A stretch of DNA of 41,603 nucleotides from a virus (IMGVR_UViG_3300015603_000047:1-41603); one strand, 5' to 3'; positions 5,822 through 17,947 are shown, counted from the first letter of the stretch. A program made the numbers and translations. The notes: generated from the letters alone by a model not told the origin.

Positions 5822-6508
5822 TCAATCCTTGTTAATTGATACCAACCTCATGAACTCTGTTCGAACATTTGGGTCAGTTTTGAATACACCACCCAACTTG
5901 CTTGTTATAGTGCTTGATCCTGCGTCTTCAACTCCTCTGCTCTTCACGCAGAAATGCTGTGCATGAATTACGACACCGATGTTATCTGTATCCAGAATAA
6001 ATTGCAAGGCATGATAGACTTGTTCAGTTAAACGTTCCTGAATCTGCGGACGCTTGCTGAAATATTCCACAATACGGTTAATCTTACTCAATCCAAGTAC
6101 CTTCTGCTTCGGAATATAACCAATAGTTGCCATCCCGTCGATTACGACGAAGTGATGCTCACAATTTGATTGCACGTTGACATTACGTTCAACTACCATC
6201 TCGTCATATTTCATCTTATTGTCAACTGTGGTACATTTCGGGAATGCCTCATAATCTAATCCCCAAAAGATTTCGTTGACGTACATCTTTGCAACACGCT
6301 TTGGAGTCTCGATGAGAGAATCGTCGCTCAAGTCGAGTCCAAGAGTATTCATGATGTCTCGAAAGCTTTGTTCAATCTTATCAATCTTGTCTTTTCGATC
6401 AGTGAGATATGGATTGATTTTAGTAGGAGTCTCAACCCCGCATTTTACGAGATGGTCGTGTACTTGTTTGCCCAATTCTGGGTCGCATTTTGTTTTATTG
6501 TATGACAT
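5822..6508 (-). CDS. folE: GTP cyclohydrolase I
   Basis: A 228-aa GTP cyclohydrolase I, which converts GTP to dihydroneopterin triphosphate. The zinc-site CEHH (in QSNCEHHFVVIDG) and the later HAQHFCVKSRGVED segment are intact, as is the GLSKINRIVEYFSKRPQIQE core. Length matches bacterial FolE. AAGGAAGG precedes the ATG. A late-type box (6568-6575) and a small leader hairpin lie upstream. With queD downstream, the likely aim is 7-deazaguanine synthesis for DNA or tRNA modification, though folate or biopterin supply cannot be excluded. Confidence 0.95.
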   Translation of the reverse strand: MSYNKTKCDPELGKQVHDHLVKCGVETPTKINPYLTDRKDKIDKIEQSFRDIMNTLGLDLSDDSLIETPKRVAKMYVNEIFWGLDYEAFPKCTTVDNKMKYDEMVVERNVNVQSNCEHHFVVIDGMATIGYIPKQKVLGLSKINRIVEYFSKRPQIQERLTEQVYHALQFILDTDNIGVVIHAQHFCVKSRGVEDAGSSTITSKLGGVFKTDPNVRTEFMRLVSINKD

Positions 6509-6899: not shown

Positions 6900-7586
6900 T
6901 CAACTACCTAAAATGTGTTCTCTAAATGCCGCAACAGAGATAGGAACAATAGGTTCAATCAACTTGAGCATTGCTTCGGCATAGACGCGAATTTCATATT
7001 GAGCATGTGAATGTAATCTAAGTTTAAGGAAGTGGAATAGATTATGTAAATCTACAGTGCCAAACATATGACTATATGTTCCAACAGGAAGTACCGACCG
7101 TGCTAATTCACGTGGTATACCATTCGCAATCATTATCTTATAGGTCGTGAATGCATTCTTATTGCAGATCCTAATCATCTCTGCATACCCGGCGGCTTCA
7201 GGGTGTTGTTCATCTGTACGCATTTGCTTGTTAGATGTTGACTGGGTAGTGATTTGATCTAACTCTGGAACATAGAACTCTTCCGGCAGTTCCGAATAAC
7301 GGGCCGAGATCTCGTTGAAGCTCCACGTACGGTGGCGGTGCCACTGTCTGAATACAAAGATCGGGGCCTTCACGTCAAATGTGAAGATACAGGATTCAAA
7401 CGGGCTGGTATGTCTATTCTTTAACAGGTAATTGAGTAGTTTGGCATCTTTGCCATCGTCGTCACCTGCACGCCATTCAGCATCGTAGGATACTCTGGCG
7501 TTACGTACAATGGATAGGTCACTACCCATGTTTTCAACCAGTCTAACGTGGCCGTGATCTAAAACTTTAATGATATTATCTTGCAT
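6900..7586 (-). CDS. thyX: Flavin-dependent thymidylate synthase ThyX
   Basis: A 228-aa ThyX, which methylates dUMP to dTMP using FAD, NADPH and methylenetetrahydrofolate. The signature RHRTWSFNEISARYS matches the family's RHRxxSxNExSxR motif exactly. Length is typical. TAGGAGATAAT precedes the ATG and a clean sigma70 promoter (7605-7633) lies upstream, pointing to early expression with the other nucleotide genes. Confidence 0.96.
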   Translation of the reverse strand: MQDNIIKVLDHGHVRLVENMGSDLSIVRNARVSYDAEWRAGDDDGKDAKLLNYLLKNRHTSPFESCIFTFDVKAPIFVFRQWHRHRTWSFNEISARYSELPEEFYVPELDQITTQSTSNKQMRTDEQHPEAAGYAEMIRICNKNAFTTYKIMIANGIPRELARSVLPVGTYSHMFGTVDLHNLFHFLKLRLHSHAQYEIRVYAEAMLKLIEPIVPISVAAFREHILGS

Positions 7587-9739: not shown

Positions 9740-10711
9740 TTACACTAGCAAAGCAGGCTCCGGGTGAAACGAGGCGTGCTTCTGGTTGTAGTTCACACAC
9801 ACGTCAAGACAATTCTTCACACAAATTGGATCCTTGAAGGCATCGTGATTCTTGTACCAGACAAGCCGTTGCTCTCTGATTGTTGAATCAACCGGGCCGA
9901 TTGGCGCGCCGTTCTCACGCAGATGGATGATGCACGGGTAGTGCTTCATTCCCATCACCGCCATGTCGTCTAGAGCGAGACCGCAACGATTGGTTGTTCC
10001 TTTCGGAATACCTCGCACCGGGATGCCGCTTGCCAGGTTTGCAACGCGGTAGCGCAGAATCGGATACTTTTTCAGCAGCCCTTCGTCAAGCTCCAACATC
10101 GGCAGACGTTCGCCCTCTTGCGCTGCAGGAATCACACGGATATCCTGCACACCAAGCGAGTCAGCAAAGCGAATTACTTCCTCTGCCTTTTCTTTGTTAG
10201 CACCGGTCAACACGACACCTACAGTGACGTAGCTGATCTTGGACAGTGCCTTGATGTTCTTCACTACTTTGGCAAACGAACCTTTTCTGCCTCCGGCCAT
10301 TGAGTCACCGTCTTCGGCGCAGCAAGCGTCAAGTGACACGGAGAAATCATTCACCCCAAGGGCGATCAGTTCCTCGTAACGATGGAACGCAGTGGCCCCG
10401 TTAGTTGACAGAGCAATACGCTCCACACCACGAGACTTCGCCAATGTGACGAGTTCACCCAACCCTTTGTACAATGTGGGCTCTCCACCGGTGAATCTGA
10501 TGTTGGTCAACCCTTCATCACACCACAGATTCACAGTTGCTTTCGCCTGATCCAGAGGCAAGTCTTGCCCGCCTACCGATCGGCAATACGGACACTTAAA
10601 GTTGCACCGCCCAGTCAACACCAGTTCACAACGAACCAGGGGTGAGGTCACTGATGAGTTCTTTGCTCTGAGGTCGCTAAGGGTGTAGAACCCGATATCT
10701 TCCAAATTCAT
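9740..10711 (-). CDS. Radical SAM protein, MoaA-like, with C-terminal cysteine cluster
   Basis: A 323-aa radical SAM enzyme. The 4Fe-4S/SAM motif is CNFKCPYC (Cys36, Cys40, Cys43), followed by RFTGGEPTL and ALSTNGA, which bind SAM. The C-terminal part holds RCGLALDD, YPCIIHL and CVKNCLDVC, five cysteines that could bind an auxiliary iron-sulfur cluster as in MoaA or SPASM/twitch enzymes. I chose the ATG at 10709-10711 because AAGGAAAACGAA precedes it and it overlaps the upstream stop as ATGA. It is the last gene of the NAD/unknown operon. Visibly GC-rich compared with the backbone. The substrate is unknown; molybdopterin synthesis is unlikely without partner genes. Confidence 0.88.
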   Translation of the reverse strand: MNLEDIGFYTLSDLRAKNSSVTSPLVRCELVLTGRCNFKCPYCRSVGGQDLPLDQAKATVNLWCDEGLTNIRFTGGEPTLYKGLGELVTLAKSRGVERIALSTNGATAFHRYEELIALGVNDFSVSLDACCAEDGDSMAGGRKGSFAKVVKNIKALSKISYVTVGVVLTGANKEKAEEVIRFADSLGVQDIRVIPAAQEGERLPMLELDEGLLKKYPILRYRVANLASGIPVRGIPKGTTNRCGLALDDMAVMGMKHYPCIIHLRENGAPIGPVDSTIREQRLVWYKNHDAFKDPICVKNCLDVCVNYNQKHASFHPEPALLV

Positions 10712-10905
10712 TTCGTTTTCCTTAGCGGACACCAAGTTGGGATAGGCGGATCACGGTCGTTCCAAGAAACCACCGCAATACGCTTACCTGCATGGTAAGC
10801 GCATTTCCATTCGAATTCAGTCTCAAATGGGTCGGCCGTGTGATACCGCTCTGACCTCATATGAGGACATTTGCTACAATTTTTAATTTCAAGAGTGACT
10901 GACAT
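10708..10905 (-). CDS. Small cysteine-rich, probably zinc-binding protein
   Basis: A 65-aa protein with four cysteines laid out as CSKCPH, WKCAYH and TWCPLRK, a likely single zinc site. It overlaps the radical SAM gene by 4 bases. Small proteins of this CxxCPH type are frequent in phages and unassigned. Confidence 0.75.
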   Translation of the reverse strand: MSVTLEIKNCSKCPHMRSERYHTADPFETEFEWKCAYHAGKRIAVVSWNDRDPPIPTWCPLRKTK

Positions 10906-11988: not shown

Positions 11989-13425
11989 TTACTTCCTGGC
12001 GTTAGCGCGGACTTCGTCAAACGTGATTTCATTCAGCGACACACCGTCCCTGAATACTTCGTGCAGAGCCTCTGCCCAAGGGCCTATGCCTTTATCAGTC
12101 CAAGTGCGCGGTGCCTCGACACCAGACGCATACTCGCCGCCACTTTCCCAGAGAGTAACACGACCACGTTTGGAATTCTTTCCAGGATCAGTGATCGGTT
12201 GTTTGAACACATCACGCCAGACCAATTCCTCTCTGGTATCTGTGTACCCTGGTTCCCACTTAGTTTCGCGCACACCAATCGCGGAACACTTCATTGCCCA
12301 TTGCATGGTGTCACGATTGACCATTTGGAGCAGCGCACCGCCTTGGCCGAATGCCACATTGTCAGCACTGAACCCTGCCATTTCCATACAGAACAGGATC
12401 GAACGGATCGTCTTGTGATCAATGCCGTCACCCTGAATGACGCGAACATTGTTCAGAACCCTGAACCCCTTGGCGTTCTTCACTGAGCCGTAGTATTTTT
12501 CCAGGATGTAGAGACACCTGACAACTACATCACTCGGCTCACCGGAGTCTGGGCGAACCACAACCACTGCACCAGAATCCAGAACATCTTGTTTCAATTC
12601 CGTGCCCCACAGTTTGCAGGCGTTGTAAATGTCGTATGAGTCTGAGACAAACGCAATCGGTGCGCCCGACTTGCTATGTAGTTTCAGCATATTGCGATAA
12701 GAATCGACTTCACTCTCCTTGCCCCAGGATGTTACAGTCGAATGTTCCATAGCAGGGATAGAGAACCCGGCCATATCAGCAGAATAATACTCCCGAGCAT
12801 AAAGCAGGCCAGTAATAGTATCCGTTCCCATGAAGTTAATGAGGTGGGCGGAATCACCGAGACCTGCACTCTCCATACTACTGACACCGCGAGAGCCAAA
12901 ATCATGCAATTTAAAATCAATAAGAGTAGGGTCACCAGTTTTCTCCAGAGCAGCAAGAATTATTTTCTTCGACTCGTAGCTGTTTGTTGCCACAGTCGTT
13001 GGATACCAGACTGCACGAAGCAGCGCAGTTTCAAGGAAGCTTGTCAGCCACCAGCAGTTCGGATCGGTGTTCTCGATTGTAGCGAGTACGTTCTTTGTAG
13101 GAATGAGACAGCCTTCCGGGGCCGCTTTGATGACAACTGGGAGACGACCGCCGTGCGTACTAAGAATATATTCCCACCCTTCCCGATAAAACGGTTCGCC
13201 GTGAGCAGTGATGATGGCTTCTGCAACATCGATATCTTCCTTGGTGATTGGAGTAGTGAGATATTCTTTGATGAAGGCTTGCAGCCCGAAGAATAGTGTT
13301 TTATCCCAGGAGCCACCGCGTGATTCAATGTACGAATAAACGTACTCGGTGTTTTTTGGGTATTGATTCCATTGTGAATACTTATAGGAATCCGAATTGA
13401 GAATGATGTTTTTTGAGAGTTTCAT
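11989..13425 (-). CDS. nadV: Nicotinamide phosphoribosyltransferase (NAMPT/NadV)
   Basis: A 478-aa NAMPT, which joins nicotinamide and phosphoribosyl pyrophosphate to make NMN. Recognisable segments are HDFGSRGVSSMESAGLG (from residue 174), PAMEHSTVTSWGKESE with the catalytic-type His228, VVRPDSGEP for phosphoribosyl binding, and IQGDGID. Length matches bacterial and phage NadV. With natV (16919-17947) it forms a complete two-step route from nicotinamide to NAD+, the pair known from Vibrio phage KVP40 and from phage NAD+ reconstitution pathway 2. It has its own sigma70 promoter and a leader identical over 17 bp to that of the RlmN-like gene. GC-rich codon use compared with structural genes. 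Confidence 0.96.
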   Translation of the reverse strand: MKLSKNIILNSDSYKYSQWNQYPKNTEYVYSYIESRGGSWDKTLFFGLQAFIKEYLTTPITKEDIDVAEAIITAHGEPFYREGWEYILSTHGGRLPVVIKAAPEGCLIPTKNVLATIENTDPNCWWLTSFLETALLRAVWYPTTVATNSYESKKIILAALEKTGDPTLIDFKLHDFGSRGVSSMESAGLGDSAHLINFMGTDTITGLLYAREYYSADMAGFSIPAMEHSTVTSWGKESEVDSYRNMLKLHSKSGAPIAFVSDSYDIYNACKLWGTELKQDVLDSGAVVVVRPDSGEPSDVVVRCLYILEKYYGSVKNAKGFRVLNNVRVIQGDGIDHKTIRSILFCMEMAGFSADNVAFGQGGALLQMVNRDTMQWAMKCSAIGVRETKWEPGYTDTREELVWRDVFKQPITDPGKNSKRGRVTLWESGGEYASGVEAPRTWTDKGIGPWAEALHEVFRDGVSLNEITFDEVRANARK

Positions 13426-13442
13426 ATAAAATCCTTATATAA
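13426..13442 (-). repeat. Duplicated leader hairpin over the nadV ribosome-binding site
   Basis: The 17 bases directly before the nadV ATG are identical to those before the 14987-15847 gene (15848-15864). On the minus strand they can fold as ATATAA-GGATT-TTATAT, placing GGA of the Shine-Dalgarno in the loop and part of the ATG in the stem. The stem is all A-U and therefore weak. Confidence 0.6.
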
Positions 13443-13484: not shown

Positions 13485-13513
13485 ATTATAGCACAATTAC
13501 TATTTTAAGTCAA
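13485..13513 (-). promoter_or_regulatory. Sigma70-type promoter for nadV
   Basis: Minus strand TTGACT (plus 13508-13513), 17-bp spacer, TATAAT (plus 13485-13490). The -35 box overlaps the stop of the methyltransferase gene. Confidence 0.85.
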
Positions 13514-13953
13514 CCCTTCTGCCATAACGAGATTTCCTTCTCATTATGTTCTTTTCGTGAAATTAGCGTGAATAGATGTGAAAATTCTTCAAAGTAATCT
13601 CTGTATTCCGGAAATATCTCTATATCAGCGCGACGATCGAAAACGTATCGATACCAAACATTATCAAGTATCACATTTTTTCGGTAATTTTTCTTATTAC
13701 AATCGATTATTATCAATTTCCCGCCCGATTTCATCCCTCGGTAAAATTCTCTCGATAATTCTAGAAAATCAGGAACATGGTGGATGACATTCCGACATCT
13801 GATATGGTCGAATGTCCCATCATCACATGTAATTCGACCATTTAGATAATAATAGTCAAGCACTGGGCTGGACGTAATATCACAGCTCTTCCAGTTCTCT
13901 AGAGCACCATACCCACTTCCGAAATCAAGTCTACATGCCGTTGATGACATCAT
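13510..13953 (-). CDS. SAM-dependent methyltransferase, class I
   Basis: A 147-aa small class I methyltransferase. Motif I is LDFGSGYGALENWKSCDI near the N-terminus, motif IV region is FDHIRCRNVIHHVPD, and MKSGGKLIIIDC follows. GAGGAG lies just ahead of two consecutive ATGs inside the end of the preceding radical SAM gene (23-base overlap), so translation is coupled. The target is unknown. As last gene of the five-gene cassette it might methylate the 46-aa peptide or a small molecule; a nucleic-acid target is also possible. Confidence 0.82.
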   Translation of the reverse strand: MMSSTACRLDFGSGYGALENWKSCDITSSPVLDYYYLNGRITCDDGTFDHIRCRNVIHHVPDFLELSREFYRGMKSGGKLIIIDCNKKNYRKNVILDNVWYRYVFDRRADIEIFPEYRDYFEEFSHLFTLISRKEHNEKEISLWQKG

Positions 13954-14590
13954 CAAACTCCTCGGTTATGTTACCAGATGGCAGTATAATCCAATTATCT
14001 TTGTCATAATCAGTGTGGGCGAAATACCTGAAGCCACCGTCCTGATTGTAATTGTATGTTGAATACGAATTTAGTTTCCGGCTTCGAAATCCCGTAAACT
14101 TAGGTATAATTTCTGATTTCGCCCGTATTTCTCCACATACAGTAATATGTGGAATGACCTTCACTAGTTCTTTAAGGGTAGTTGAGTTACATGCACCCTC
14201 GAATATATTAAGCCGTATCTTACTCATATTGGTCTTGGCCCTAAAGGACGGGTCACTGACAATATCTGCATCACTCACCGATATGTTATCAGCAAGCCTT
14301 AAGGTATCTCTGAACCAGGCATCACCACCACTCCCGTTGGTAGTAACATTCAATGTAGTACTCGGAAAGAATTCTCTAATAAGCCTTAGGTACTGGTTAA
14401 ATTCTTTAATATACGCAACCTCACCACCCATAACAGTGATATATTGTGTATCCTTAAAATCTGATGCCAGAAAGATTTCACGTAAGGTATTAATCGGTAA
14501 TACCCTATTGCTGAAATCTTTCTGATAACAAAATGAACAACGCTTGTTACACTTGTATGTCAGCACAATTCTAAGGCCAGTTTTCTTCAT
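13931..14590 (-). CDS. Short radical SAM protein of the peptide cassette
   Basis: A 219-aa radical SAM protein with the cluster motif CNKRCSFC (Cys14, Cys18, Cys21), a GGEVAYI segment in place of the usual GGEP, and LNVTTNGSGG. It has no C-terminal SPASM-type cysteine cluster, so it likely carries one cluster only. It is about the size of QueE, but QueE-specific features are missing and its neighbours are not queuosine genes. The gene lies 22 bases downstream of the 46-aa peptide gene and overlaps a methyltransferase. I infer that it modifies the peptide. AT-rich compared with nadV and the RlmN-like gene. Confidence 0.82.
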   Translation of the reverse strand: MKKTGLRIVLTYKCNKRCSFCYQKDFSNRVLPINTLREIFLASDFKDTQYITVMGGEVAYIKEFNQYLRLIREFFPSTTLNVTTNGSGGDAWFRDTLRLADNISVSDADIVSDPSFRAKTNMSKIRLNIFEGACNSTTLKELVKVIPHITVCGEIRAKSEIIPKFTGFRSRKLNSYSTYNYNQDGGFRYFAHTDYDKDNWIILPSGNITEEFDDVINGM

Positions 14591-14612
14591 CTTGTACTAT
14601 CGGCTAGACTGA

Positions 14613-14753
14613 CTATTCGTTAATTGCTTCTGTTACCAAGCACATCATTCCACAAGCGGCGCCGGCTTGCACTTCTGCGTCCGTTGCGATTGCGACTGCA
14701 CCTTCGAAACCTGCTTCGGTGATGCTGTTGACGATTTGTGTTACTTTTTCCAT
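14613..14753 (-). CDS. 46-aa peptide, candidate radical-SAM-modified (RiPP) precursor
   Basis: A 46-codon gene with AAAGGA 6-7 bases before the ATG. The first ~28 residues (from MEKVTQIVNSITEAGFEG) are acidic and helix-forming, like a leader peptide. Then comes a small-residue core, QAGAACGMMCLVTEAINE, with two cysteines (34 and 38) and two methionines. It has no membrane helix and no recognised domain. It lies between an RlmN-like radical SAM gene with a 66-aa partner and a second radical SAM gene followed by a methyltransferase. A short leader-plus-core peptide beside radical SAM enzymes is the standard arrangement of RiPP clusters, hence the call; it could instead be a small structural partner of the enzymes. 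Confidence 0.7.
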   Translation of the reverse strand: MEKVTQIVNSITEAGFEGAVAIATDAEVQAGAACGMMCLVTEAINE

Positions 14754-14786
14754 GATTTTTCCTTTAAATTGATAATACGACTTTAC

Positions 14787-14987
14787 CTACTTTTTCAATA
14801 CGATTTTTACTTCTACTTCCACTATTTCAGCCGGCACCCCGGTTTGTTGAACTTGTGAAGTAATTTTCCACTGCTTAACATAAGCTTCGGCAGCAGCTAC
14901 AGTGTCAAACAGTAATGCGGAAGCATTATTGTCTGTCATTAGCCCATCCTTGCGAACAAGCATACCGTAATATCTAATAGCAAACAT
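14787..14987 (-). CDS. Small alpha/beta protein of the peptide cassette (66 aa)
   Basis: A 66-aa protein of unknown function with strand-helix-strand character: FAIRYYGMLVRKDGLM, then a helix VAAAEAYVKQW, then PAEIVEVEVKIVLKK. Its ATG shares a base with the stop of the RlmN-like gene (TGATG), so the two are translationally coupled. It does not look like a RiPP recognition element, but a partner role to the radical SAM enzymes or the peptide is plausible from position alone. Confidence 0.72.
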   Translation of the reverse strand: MFAIRYYGMLVRKDGLMTDNNASALLFDTVAAAEAYVKQWKITSQVQQTGVPAEIVEVEVKIVLKK

Positions 14988-15847
14988 CAGATTGAATTTT
15001 CGTAGCTGAATAGTGTTGAGAGAGAATTCTCGTCAGACACGGGGTTTTCGTTAATCGGAGACACCTTGATGAAGACCGTTTTAGGGTCAAATTGTGTCTT
15101 GAGGTCTTCGATCACGAAAGGGGTATCCTTAGCAAGCGCGAAATTCAGCGTTGCTTTCCAAGGACGATTCGGGAAATGATTGTACCAATGAGTGGCCAAT
15201 TCGCCTATCTGTTTGTTAGTCATTACAGTGCCGATCTGCAACCATTTACGGAATGTGTCGTCAGTGCTATGGATGCTGAATTGAAGTTCAAGCCAATCGG
15301 ATCCAAACTTCCTTTCAAGGCCTAACAATGCAGCAACCAAATCCTTTGACTTTTTGATACCGATAGTGGATATTTGAACGCGGGCTTTTGGATAGAGAGT
15401 TTTGATGCGGTCCACTGCCTCAACTACGTTGCGTTTGTTCAGACTGGGTTCGCCCATGCGCGTAAAGAGTACGCGGAAGATTCCACTGTCATTTGGATTG
15501 AGTCCGCCGTTGATTTTTTGTGCTTCGGCGACAGCATATTTGACCTGATCAACCATTTCGTCAGCAGTCAGGTTGCGCCAGCCTTGAGAGTCAGTAAGAC
15601 GATTGACCGCGCAGAATTTGCACTTGATCGGGCAACCAGTTTGTGTGCTGATGCCGACTGTCCATTTCTCTTTCCAGTTTTCGATGGAGAAAGCATTGGC
15701 GTCAACTTTGTTGTCTTTGCGGTGGGTGTTACGAACCTCAGTCTGACCTGGCAGACACGTTGAGGTTGTTTCGATTAGCTTTTTGTCGATCAGTTGAAGA
15801 ACTGACACGTAGCCGTTTGTAAATTGTTTCGTTTTAAGTTCGATCAT
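14987..15847 (-). CDS. RlmN/Cfr-like radical SAM protein lacking the two methylation cysteines
   Basis: A 286-aa protein clearly related to RlmN: STQTGCPIKCKFC with cluster cysteines 72, 76 and 79, RNLTADEMVDQV, LFTRMGEPSLNKRN, VQISTIGI and LQFSIHSTDD follow in the RlmN order. RlmN and Cfr need two further cysteines, one seven residues before the cluster and one near the C-terminus. Here the first is Gly65 and there is no Cys after 79. The RlmN N-terminal accessory domain is also shortened. It should therefore not methylate RNA by the known mechanism. It heads a five-gene unit with its own sigma70 promoter, and its leader repeats that of nadV. Confidence 0.88.
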   Translation of the reverse strand: MIELKTKQFTNGYVSVLQLIDKKLIETTSTCLPGQTEVRNTHRKDNKVDANAFSIENWKEKWTVGISTQTGCPIKCKFCAVNRLTDSQGWRNLTADEMVDQVKYAVAEAQKINGGLNPNDSGIFRVLFTRMGEPSLNKRNVVEAVDRIKTLYPKARVQISTIGIKKSKDLVAALLGLERKFGSDWLELQFSIHSTDDTFRKWLQIGTVMTNKQIGELATHWYNHFPNRPWKATLNFALAKDTPFVIEDLKTQFDPKTVFIKVSPINENPVSDENSLSTLFSYENSI

Positions 15848-15864
15848 ATAAAATCCTTATATAA
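15848..15864 (-). repeat. Duplicated leader hairpin over the RlmN-like gene start
   Basis: Identical over 17 bp to 13426-13442. Contains the Shine-Dalgarno AAGGA in the loop of an A-U stem that runs into the ATG. Confidence 0.6.
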
Positions 15865-15894: not shown

Positions 15895-15923
15895 ATTATA
15901 GTTTAACAATTAAAAATTGTCAA
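15895..15923 (-). promoter_or_regulatory. Sigma70-type promoter of the radical SAM peptide cassette
   Basis: Minus strand TTGACA (plus 15918-15923), 17-bp spacer, TATAAT (plus 15895-15900): a perfect consensus. Upstream AGGTTAG is shared with the natV promoter. Confidence 0.9.
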
Positions 15924-16646: not shown

Positions 16647-16922
16647 TCATGCTCCTATTACTTCAAAATCCCACTTAGCACTTTGGCAAATCTTGCCCCA
16701 TGTGCGGTGATGTTGATAAATTAGCTTTGCGGCTAAGTCCTCACTGTCGGACCCGATCTTACCTTTGGCACACCATGTCATAGCATCCTCAAGGTGGGCG
16801 CACGTGGCATAGTTGATGTAGTCATCAAATAACAGTTGCCCCATACTTTCACAATATTCTTCCAAGGCCGCTGGGGTTTCGTCGGGCATTTCGATTTCGA
16901 TAATCAGTTTGACTTTCATCAT
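16647..16922 (-). CDS. Hypothetical protein (91 aa)
   Basis: Not recognised. A 91-aa acidic alpha/beta protein: MMKVKLIIEIEMPDETPAAL, then helices containing Cys, His and Trp. The start overlaps the natV stop by 4 bases (ATGA), so it is translated with natV. Confidence 0.68.
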   Translation of the reverse strand: MMKVKLIIEIEMPDETPAALEEYCESMGQLLFDDYINYATCAHLEDAMTWCAKGKIGSDSEDLAAKLIYQHHRTWGKICQSAKWDFEVIGA

Positions 16923-17947
16923 GCTCCAATCATAGTTTGGATAATTTCGTAGTGATCTTCAAAGGTCACATTCGAATCCAATTCGTTGATCGGGATCCAT
17001 TGTGCTTTTTCAGCATCGTCAGATCCTTTGACCTTGGGCAGTTCGCCGGCAGGCAGATCAATCCTGAAACAGTGGGTGATTGTGCGACCACGTGCTGAAC
17101 GCTCGATGGCGTCAAACACTTGTGTTTTCACAATCGATCCTATCAGGACAGGGCCGGGCACCTTGATCATTGTTTCTTCTCGCAGTTCGCGGACCATTGC
17201 GTCCTGGACACTCCGATCAGTTCCAGCATTCAGGAAGCCACCGGGCATTGCCCAGAGACCCTTGCCCGGTTCGCTGCGGCGTTTCACCATCAGCACATGC
17301 CCTGCACATATCACTACCGCATCCACAGTGACGAAGATCGGCGGGTACCGCAGACTGGAGTATTGCTTTTTGTAATCTTCAATGAATAGGCGCTCACGCA
17401 TAACCTGCGCCCATTCCTCAGTGCCTTTCCAGCCCTCAAGCATCTGGTTGACTGGACCGGGTAGCACGCCATGTAGAAAGTTCATGTTGGCGTTTGCACG
17501 GAAATACAGATCACGAATATTCGTGGCGTTCAGTGGCTCAAGCAGATCAACTTCCTCGAAGCCCCATTGAGGGAACATATCAAGATAGAACGTACTGGAG
17601 TCTTTCCGGTGGCCGATCAAGGCGATACTGTCACCTGGCTGAGTGTGCTTTGCCACGATGGCTTGCACTCGTGCGGCCCAGGCTTGGTCGTTGTAGATCG
17701 TGTCGGTGTTGTGTTCAATCCGGATCATGCAGTCATCATCGGGCATTTGAGCGATGACATTTTTCAGCATGTTTTCACGATCAATGCTGCTCCAGGGATT
17801 TTTATAGGTGCGTGGCTGGCGTGCAGATCCAACTACGATGATCAGTTGCTTTGCCAACAGCGTGGCTCTACGGATTATTTCAGCGTGAGCTTTGTGGACT
17901 GGTTGAAAGCGTCCAATGAGGACCAGAGTGTGATATTGTTTCGTCAT
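16919..17947 (-). CDS. natV: Bifunctional NMN adenylyltransferase / Nudix hydrolase (NatV/NadM-Nudix)
   Basis: A 342-aa two-domain enzyme. The N-terminal half is an NMN adenylyltransferase with LIGRFQPVHKAHAEIIRRA (the HxxH nucleotidyltransferase motif, near residue 10), GSARQPRTYKNPW and NATNIRDLYF. The C-terminal half is Nudix, with GGFLNAG followed by VRELREETM; compared with the usual spacing it has two extra residues and lacks the first Glu of the box, so its hydrolase activity may be altered. It makes NAD+ from NMN and ATP; the Nudix part may cleave ADP-ribose. The same fusion occurs in phage KVP40. It has a sigma70 promoter and a late-type box upstream. Confidence 0.94.
   Translation of the reverse strand: MTKQYHTLVLIGRFQPVHKAHAEIIRRATLLAKQLIIVVGSARQPRTYKNPWSSIDRENMLKNVIAQMPDDDCMIRIEHNTDTIYNDQAWAARVQAIVAKHTQPGDSIALIGHRKDSSTFYLDMFPQWGFEEVDLLEPLNATNIRDLYFRANANMNFLHGVLPGPVNQMLEGWKGTEEWAQVMRERLFIEDYKKQYSSLRYPPIFVTVDAVVICAGHVLMVKRRSEPGKGLWAMPGGFLNAGTDRSVQDAMVRELREETMIKVPGPVLIGSIVKTQVFDAIERSARGRTITHCFRIDLPAGELPKVKGSDDAEKAQWIPINELDSNVTFEDHYEIIQTMIGA

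Follow-up and report, generated by a model that had tools for sequence, protein, structure and literature searches.

The DNA analysed here, a stretch of 41,603 nucleotides from an uncultured virus referred to in full as the window, encodes a radical SAM protein (rSAM1) and a 46-aa peptide that probably form one RlmN/Cfr-type enzyme for radical SAM methylene transfer, divided over two chains. That this is an RlmN-type enzyme with its catalytic cysteine placed on a free small protein is well supported by sequence, synteny and modelling. The computations show that the peptide is homologous to the tail of RlmN/Cfr, that the two chains complement each other and dock when modelled as one chain, that the two genes closely co-occur, that the peptide has an invariant cysteine and that rSAM1 has lost both Cys118 and the RNA-binding domain.

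The two genes belong to a cassette of five open reading frames on the minus strand, found where the original prediction had placed them, and the following features were identified in and around it:

11989-13425, minus strand: nicotinamide phosphoribosyltransferase (NAMPT), linked gene
13423-13441, minus strand: 19-bp leader before NAMPT, identical to the one before rSAM1
13485-13513, minus strand: second sigma70-type promoter, between the methyltransferase gene and NAMPT, 11/12 match
13510-13950, minus strand: SAM-dependent methyltransferase, 146 aa (phrog_5399, Methyltransf_11)
13931-14590, minus strand: rSAM2, small MoaA/viperin-like radical SAM protein, 219 aa (Pfam radical SAM)
14613-14753, minus strand: the 46-aa peptide, interpreted as a detached mCys module
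14787-14987, minus strand: 66-aa ORF, in TGATG overlap with rSAM1
14987-15847, minus strand: rSAM1, RlmN/Cfr-type radical SAM core, 286 aa (Pfam radical SAM)
15845-15863, minus strand: leader with Shine-Dalgarno sequence, TATATAAGGATTTTATATG, before rSAM1
15895-15923, minus strand: sigma70-type cassette promoter, TTGACA-17-TATAAT, 12/12 consensus match
16919-17947, minus strand: bifunctional NMN adenylyltransferase/Nudix protein (NadM-like), linked gene

This layout agrees with the original prediction in several respects: the five genes run in the same direction with tight spacing or overlaps (TGATG between rSAM1 and the 66-aa ORF, 20 bases between the rSAM2 and methyltransferase genes), the promoter is a perfect sigma70 match, Pfam recognises two radical SAM enzymes of 286 and 219 aa and a methyltransferase in the last gene, and the cassette lies between two NAD genes, the NadM/Nudix gene on one side and NAMPT on the other. 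The 19-bp leader TATATAAGGATTTTATATG is present in exactly two copies in the window, before rSAM1 and before NAMPT, when 0.05 are expected; each copy has its own sigma70-like promoter upstream and is preceded by a similar small stem-loop.

Analysis of rSAM1 revealed the cluster motif CX3CX2C at C72, C76 and C79, kept in 94 of 94 separate rSAM1 proteins, and the alignment contains the motif TRMGEP with the SAM-binding MGEP. Against the RlmN equivalog TIGR00048 the protein scores 59.4 bits and does not reach the cut-off of 290, and neither rSAM1 nor rSAM2 reached the cut-off of any NCBIfam model. The protein ends where the RlmN/Cfr tail with its methyl-carrying cysteine would begin; the AACGQL methyl-cysteine tail is missing from the chain and the motif is instead carried on a separate gene. 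The N-terminal RNA-binding domain of RlmN is also lacking, residue 1 of the structure model aligning to RlmN residue 80.

In the peptide the motif AACGQL is that of the RlmN/Cfr tail, with Cys34 aligned to Cys355 of RlmN and Cys338 of Cfr (example sequences, RlmN/Cfr tails: LKSAGIHVTIRSQFGIDIDAACGQL; peptides: LEAAGYEYAVAVATKSEVENGAACGQL). Alignment with hhalign placed rSAM1 on RlmN columns 83-302 and the peptide on columns 312-345, so that the two tile. A profile built only from RlmN/Cfr, using 7 bacterial proteins, was run on the 4861 ORFs of the rSAM1 loci and matched 97 rSAM1, 56 peptides and 19 others, mostly radical SAM proteins, the peptides falling on profile positions ~305-339 with AACGQL over AACGQL. 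The single-sequence similarity is weak, 2.2 bits for the window peptide alone against this profile, and the case for homology to RlmN rests on the whole family. Natural one-chain fusions of rSAM1 and peptide were found at two loci (L121 and L122), both ending VACGQALEAF, and the A2 profile finds the module at their C-terminus with E-values of 0.0007 and 0.002. From the tiling, the RlmN/Cfr-profile matches and the fused homologues we conclude that the peptide is a detached RlmN tail and that its Cys34 corresponds to Cys355.

The peptide is a real gene, with a dN/dS of ~0.1 (0.052/0.515) against the nearest relative and 0.1-0.23 against other relatives with usable dS. It is conserved over its full length, most strongly at AACGQL, and shows no pattern of leader and core. 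The original prediction had assumed a core with two cysteines, of which Cys34 stood, being present in 89 of 89 aligned peptides and in the fused forms, while Cys38 did not (7 of 89); a drifting leader beside conserved core cysteines was not seen, AACGQL being the most conserved part and only one of the two cysteines being kept. Exceptions to the peptide cysteine are a copy at L073:8138-8248 without the CGQL residues, and L021, a frameshifted copy of L020. In Vibrio phage D479 (L004:3896-4111) the peptide is doubled, a single small protein carrying two AACGQM modules in tandem, and at L086:5118-6110 a second radical SAM protein has the module as a C-terminal fusion.

The structure was modelled on a relative, L022, in which rSAM1 is 72% identical to that of the window and the two genes are in frame; its DNA was translated through the stop, read as a residue, into one chain, an arrangement which in itself favours docking of the peptide on rSAM1. 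AlphaFold2 gave a pLDDT of 93.5 and a pTM of 0.92, with local pLDDT values of 82-97 over the peptide and a drop to 58 confined to the linker. Compared with E. coli RlmN (3rfa), the model gave a VIA Z of 27.2 and an rmsd of 3.0 over 282 residues, model residues 1-345 lying on RlmN 80-374, tail included, and compared with C118A RlmN crosslinked to tRNA (5hr6) it gave a Z of 28.6 (1-335 on 80-363), the range over RlmN structures being 26.6-28.9. RlmN residues 1-79, the N-terminal domain, have no counterpart in it. The peptide is predicted to dock where RlmN's own tail sits.

A tblastn search of 50,697 phage records with the peptide revealed eight records at E < 0.1, all of which also carry rSAM1, with the peptide within ~0.35 kb downstream of it. 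The peptide adjoins rSAM1 in phages of Vibrio, Pectobacterium, Yersinia, Bacteroides (crAss-like) and Moorella, Pectobacterium phage Arno18 and Moorella phage MTATph1 being cultured carriers. A nucleotide search of named phages gave no match. A homing-endonuclease-like ORF is inserted between rSAM1 and peptide at L001:2568-3266 and L002:3322-4020 (minus strand), and a ~90-aa protein common to Pectobacterium and Yersinia phages lies between them at L006:3696-3974 and L005:3617-3889.

Family-wide scans collected 80 loci from IMG/VR and 29 from genome assemblies, including MAGs, from which duplicates were then removed. Among the MAG labels are Parcubacteria, Nanoarchaeota, Woesearchaeota and Thorarchaeota, possibly on viral contigs. 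A peptide match was found in the fetched stretch at 93 of 97 non-redundant rSAM1 loci (phage contigs and MAGs): the two one-chain fusions, the fusion to a second radical SAM protein at L086, and otherwise separate ORFs. As a separate protein the cysteine-bearing piece has a length of 40-50 residues. As for the remaining four, L029 and L109 end at contig edges, L033 has the peptide ~6 kb away (L134) and in L123 there is a divergent candidate with the C-terminus DITCGKLAAII. Scanning independently with the peptide as the starting point gave 63 loci, mostly on the same contigs as the rSAM1 scan, and rSAM1 was present in 57 of the 61 newly cut loci; the peptide without a recognisable rSAM1 was seen on three contigs, two of them related (L141:2910-5650, L142, L146). 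The distance matrices of rSAM1 and peptide correlate with r 0.86 (0 of 5000 permutations), a value that includes shared descent, and at 38 of the 97 loci rSAM1 and peptide occur without any other tested family. Conservation of the peptide next to rSAM1 in other phages is borne out by both the tblastn search and the locus scans.

In the proposed mechanism rSAM1 would hold a [4Fe-4S] cluster and SAM, and the peptide would dock as the missing C-terminal tail, bringing Cys34 into the active site. If the analogy with RlmN holds, a first SAM would methylate Cys34 and a second would give a 5'-deoxyadenosyl radical taking a hydrogen from the S-methyl group, after which the S-CH2 radical would add to a ring carbon of the substrate; the methylation of Cys34 and the radical step are both inferred from that analogy.

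The final step is where the split enzyme would depart from RlmN. At the position of RlmN Cys118 there is a glycine (Gly65 in the window) in 94 of 94 separate rSAM1 proteins, among which no cysteine besides the three cluster ligands is conserved. In RlmN the S-CH2-RNA adduct is resolved by Cys118 (Cys105 in Cfr), which is called indispensable, and C118A RlmN remains crosslinked to its substrate (PMC9692996, PMC5130265, PMC13001441). Since Cys118 is absent, the adduct would either be resolved by another group or be itself the product, a peptide-substrate conjugate, and ordinary RlmN turnover is not assured in the split enzyme, which may use a different route to methylation or link the peptide to the target. 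Within the split model, release of the adduct peptide-Cys34-S-CH2-substrate as such has somewhat less than an even chance, and a separate, replaceable tail fits such a release; ordinary methyl transfer is only a little less likely. That the peptide stays covalently on its target through Cys34-S-CH2 with no methyl release, as a 46-aa tag on NAD, an NAD precursor or RNA, is somewhat unlikely; one peptide would then be consumed per turnover. If conjugation does occur, the modified NAD could resist NAD-destroying defences or be a scaffold for rSAM2 and the methyltransferase.

The original prediction took the cassette for a cluster making a ribosomally synthesised, post-translationally modified peptide (RiPP), in which the peptide would be a precursor with its Cys region modified by rSAM1/rSAM2, trimmed and released as the active product. 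In favour of this, a single transcription unit combines a short cysteine-bearing peptide with a pair of radical SAM enzymes and a methyltransferase, and related loci have a ~100-aa DPC...C precursor-like protein beside another radical SAM gene, but the 46-aa peptide is conserved throughout with its peak at AACGQL, the would-be core, and it matches the RlmN/Cfr tail and complements the truncated rSAM1. With no leader/core pattern, with fused one-chain forms in existence and with many loci (the 38 of 97) having rSAM1 and peptide and none of the other tested families, the RiPP reading is very unlikely. The peptide is very probably not a precursor, and this was rejected as the main reading, the peptide being homologous to the very enzyme tail that rSAM1 is missing.

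The RlmN fold and cluster motifs of rSAM1 would also suit an RlmN complemented in trans and methylating the adenine that RlmN normally modifies in 23S rRNA or tRNA, with some other residue in the role of Cys118. Hosts normally have an RlmN of their own, which counts against this, and the linkage to NAD genes would be left unexplained. RlmN does target both rRNA and tRNA (PMC5130265), but the N-terminal domain (RlmN 1-79), which in Cfr contacts rRNA (PMC13001441), is missing here, and Cys118, indispensable according to PMC9692996, is replaced by an invariant glycine; we regard such an enzyme as unlikely. A separate regulator or inhibitor mimicking the RlmN tail would likewise dock in the active-site groove, with catalysis proceeding without the peptide cysteine. 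This is hardly probable, as the peptide cysteine is invariant and occupies the mCys position, as rSAM1 conserves no cysteines but its three cluster ligands, and as the natural fusions retain the peptide cysteine.

For the split enzyme, the substrate may be a small adenine nucleotide rather than rRNA, NAD or a precursor being the leading, if doubtful, guess. At the 97 loci the most common neighbour families are NAMPT (~26-27 loci), methyltransferase (23) and NadM (22), no other reaching ten. The NAMPT profile was made from a single-linkage cluster and also catches at least one NAD synthase (L105); a firmer figure comes from a Pfam search of 50 whole contigs, which found NAMPT in 24 and not in the other 26, some of these being fragments. 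In 15 of the 24 contigs NAMPT lies within 3 kb of rSAM1, in all 15 on the same strand, when 1.9 are expected (naive P 1e-12, ignoring kinship), as compared with ribonucleotide reductase at 0 of 13 contigs and PhoH at 0 of 9. The linkage changes at least 16 times on the rSAM1 tree and has thus been gained or lost many times, and in many carriers of rSAM1 NAMPT is distant or absent. The window NAMPT scores 590.9 bits against PRK09198 (cut-off 405), while the NadM-like protein, at 383.7 bits, is just under its cut-off of 397. In L141 and L142 the peptide itself lies between NadM and NAMPT, and one-chain RlmN-like relatives in Vibrio phages also adjoin NAMPT. At L105:3270-3985, on a contig labelled Nanoarchaeota, an NAD synthase gene (NadE) is located directly upstream of rSAM1.

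Two other genes of the cassette, rSAM2 and the methyltransferase, are recurrent companions. Wherever the methyltransferase is present (23 loci) it is accompanied by a member of the rSAM2 family, in most cases encoded immediately ahead of it, and the motifs CX3CX2CYQ, GGE and NG, invariant in that family, are retained in the rSAM2 of the window. The model of this protein is an ordinary radical SAM fold close to those of MoaA, SuiB and viperin, the top hits of a structural search lying within ~1.5 Z units (MoaA 14.7, tetraether synthase 14.4, SuiB 13.8, viperin-like 13.2). Neither tblastn with the window rSAM2 in named phages nor a pattern scan of IMG/VR gave relatives, which came up only through synteny. 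Homologues of the methyltransferase were found in Bacillus and Lysinibacillus herelleviruses without an annotated radical SAM gene nearby and thus do not fix its role. Most loci have rSAM1 and peptide without rSAM2 and the methyltransferase, which were rejected as core components and are considered optional later steps. The 66-aa ORF, proposed originally as a partner, does exist and is TGATG-coupled to rSAM1, but no relatives of it were found in any fetched locus; it was rejected as part of the system and is probably outside the core.

In a second arrangement, seen at related loci, another kind of rSAM2 is combined with a ~100-aa protein whose C-terminus reads DPC(S/G)...C. The latter, situated between rSAM1 and the peptide next to the radical SAM gene of the other type, looks like a RiPP precursor and was seen at L052:5155-5442, L056:4776-5087, L064:4781-5092 and L067:4683-5018, and further at L078:4814-5266, L084:4795-5082 and L086:4791-5096.

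When comparing with known systems, the split enzyme resembles RlmN/Cfr (TIGR00048, NF000424; 3rfa, 5hr6, 9p0p) in CX3CX2C, MGEP, the AACGQL tail and overall fold, and differs in the separate tail protein, the glycine for Cys118/Cys105 and the missing N-terminal RNA-binding domain. The absence of a thiol at position 118 is shared with the RlmN C118A trapping mutant (5hr6, 5hr7, 4pl1), a one-chain laboratory mutant which forms a stable covalent protein-CH2-RNA adduct, whereas in the split family the loss is natural and invariant and the part that would bear the adduct is a free small protein. Single-chain RlmN-like proteins of phages (Salmonella phage Arash, Aeromonas phage Ahp1, Stenotrophomonas phage ANB28 and Vibrio phage PS17B-2) also lack the N-terminal domain, and those of Vibrio adjoin NAMPT, but they have the tail GGGCGQLW in the same chain and keep Cys118. 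The canonical phage NAD salvage pathway (NAMPT and NMN adenylyltransferase) comprises the two genes that flank the cassette, is known without a radical SAM part and is here only a genetic neighbour. Radical SAM RiPP clusters likewise combine a small peptide and radical SAM genes in one unit, in contrast to which this peptide has no leader/core pattern and is homologous to an enzyme tail.

Searches of the open-licence literature gave no description of a split RlmN, of an RlmN whose tail works in trans or of an RlmN-like phage protein connected with NAD, and the split enzyme appears to be undescribed so far. This is in line with the original statement that no such phage system was known, and the conserved cassette, with peptide, rSAM1, rSAM2 and methyltransferase together, recurs in distant phages. 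The system is easy to miss, since its peptides are small and carry at most the annotation of hypothetical protein. Known class A radical SAM methylases have the methyl-carrying cysteine in the same chain together with a resolving cysteine, and this widespread viral family breaks both rules. It would be a naturally occurring radical methyl carrier that acts in trans, may also conjugate protein to nucleotides, and would add a new partner to the NAD metabolism of phages, itself a battleground with bacterial defence.

Elsewhere in the window a ThyX-like thymidylate synthase, judged by eye only, was noted at 6900-7586. Downstream of NAMPT, at 9740-10735, there is a third gene for a radical SAM protein, which resembles MoaA (TIGR02666 with an E-value of 1e-25, under the cut-off), and the same phage encodes a GTP cyclohydrolase I (FolE) at 5822-6508.
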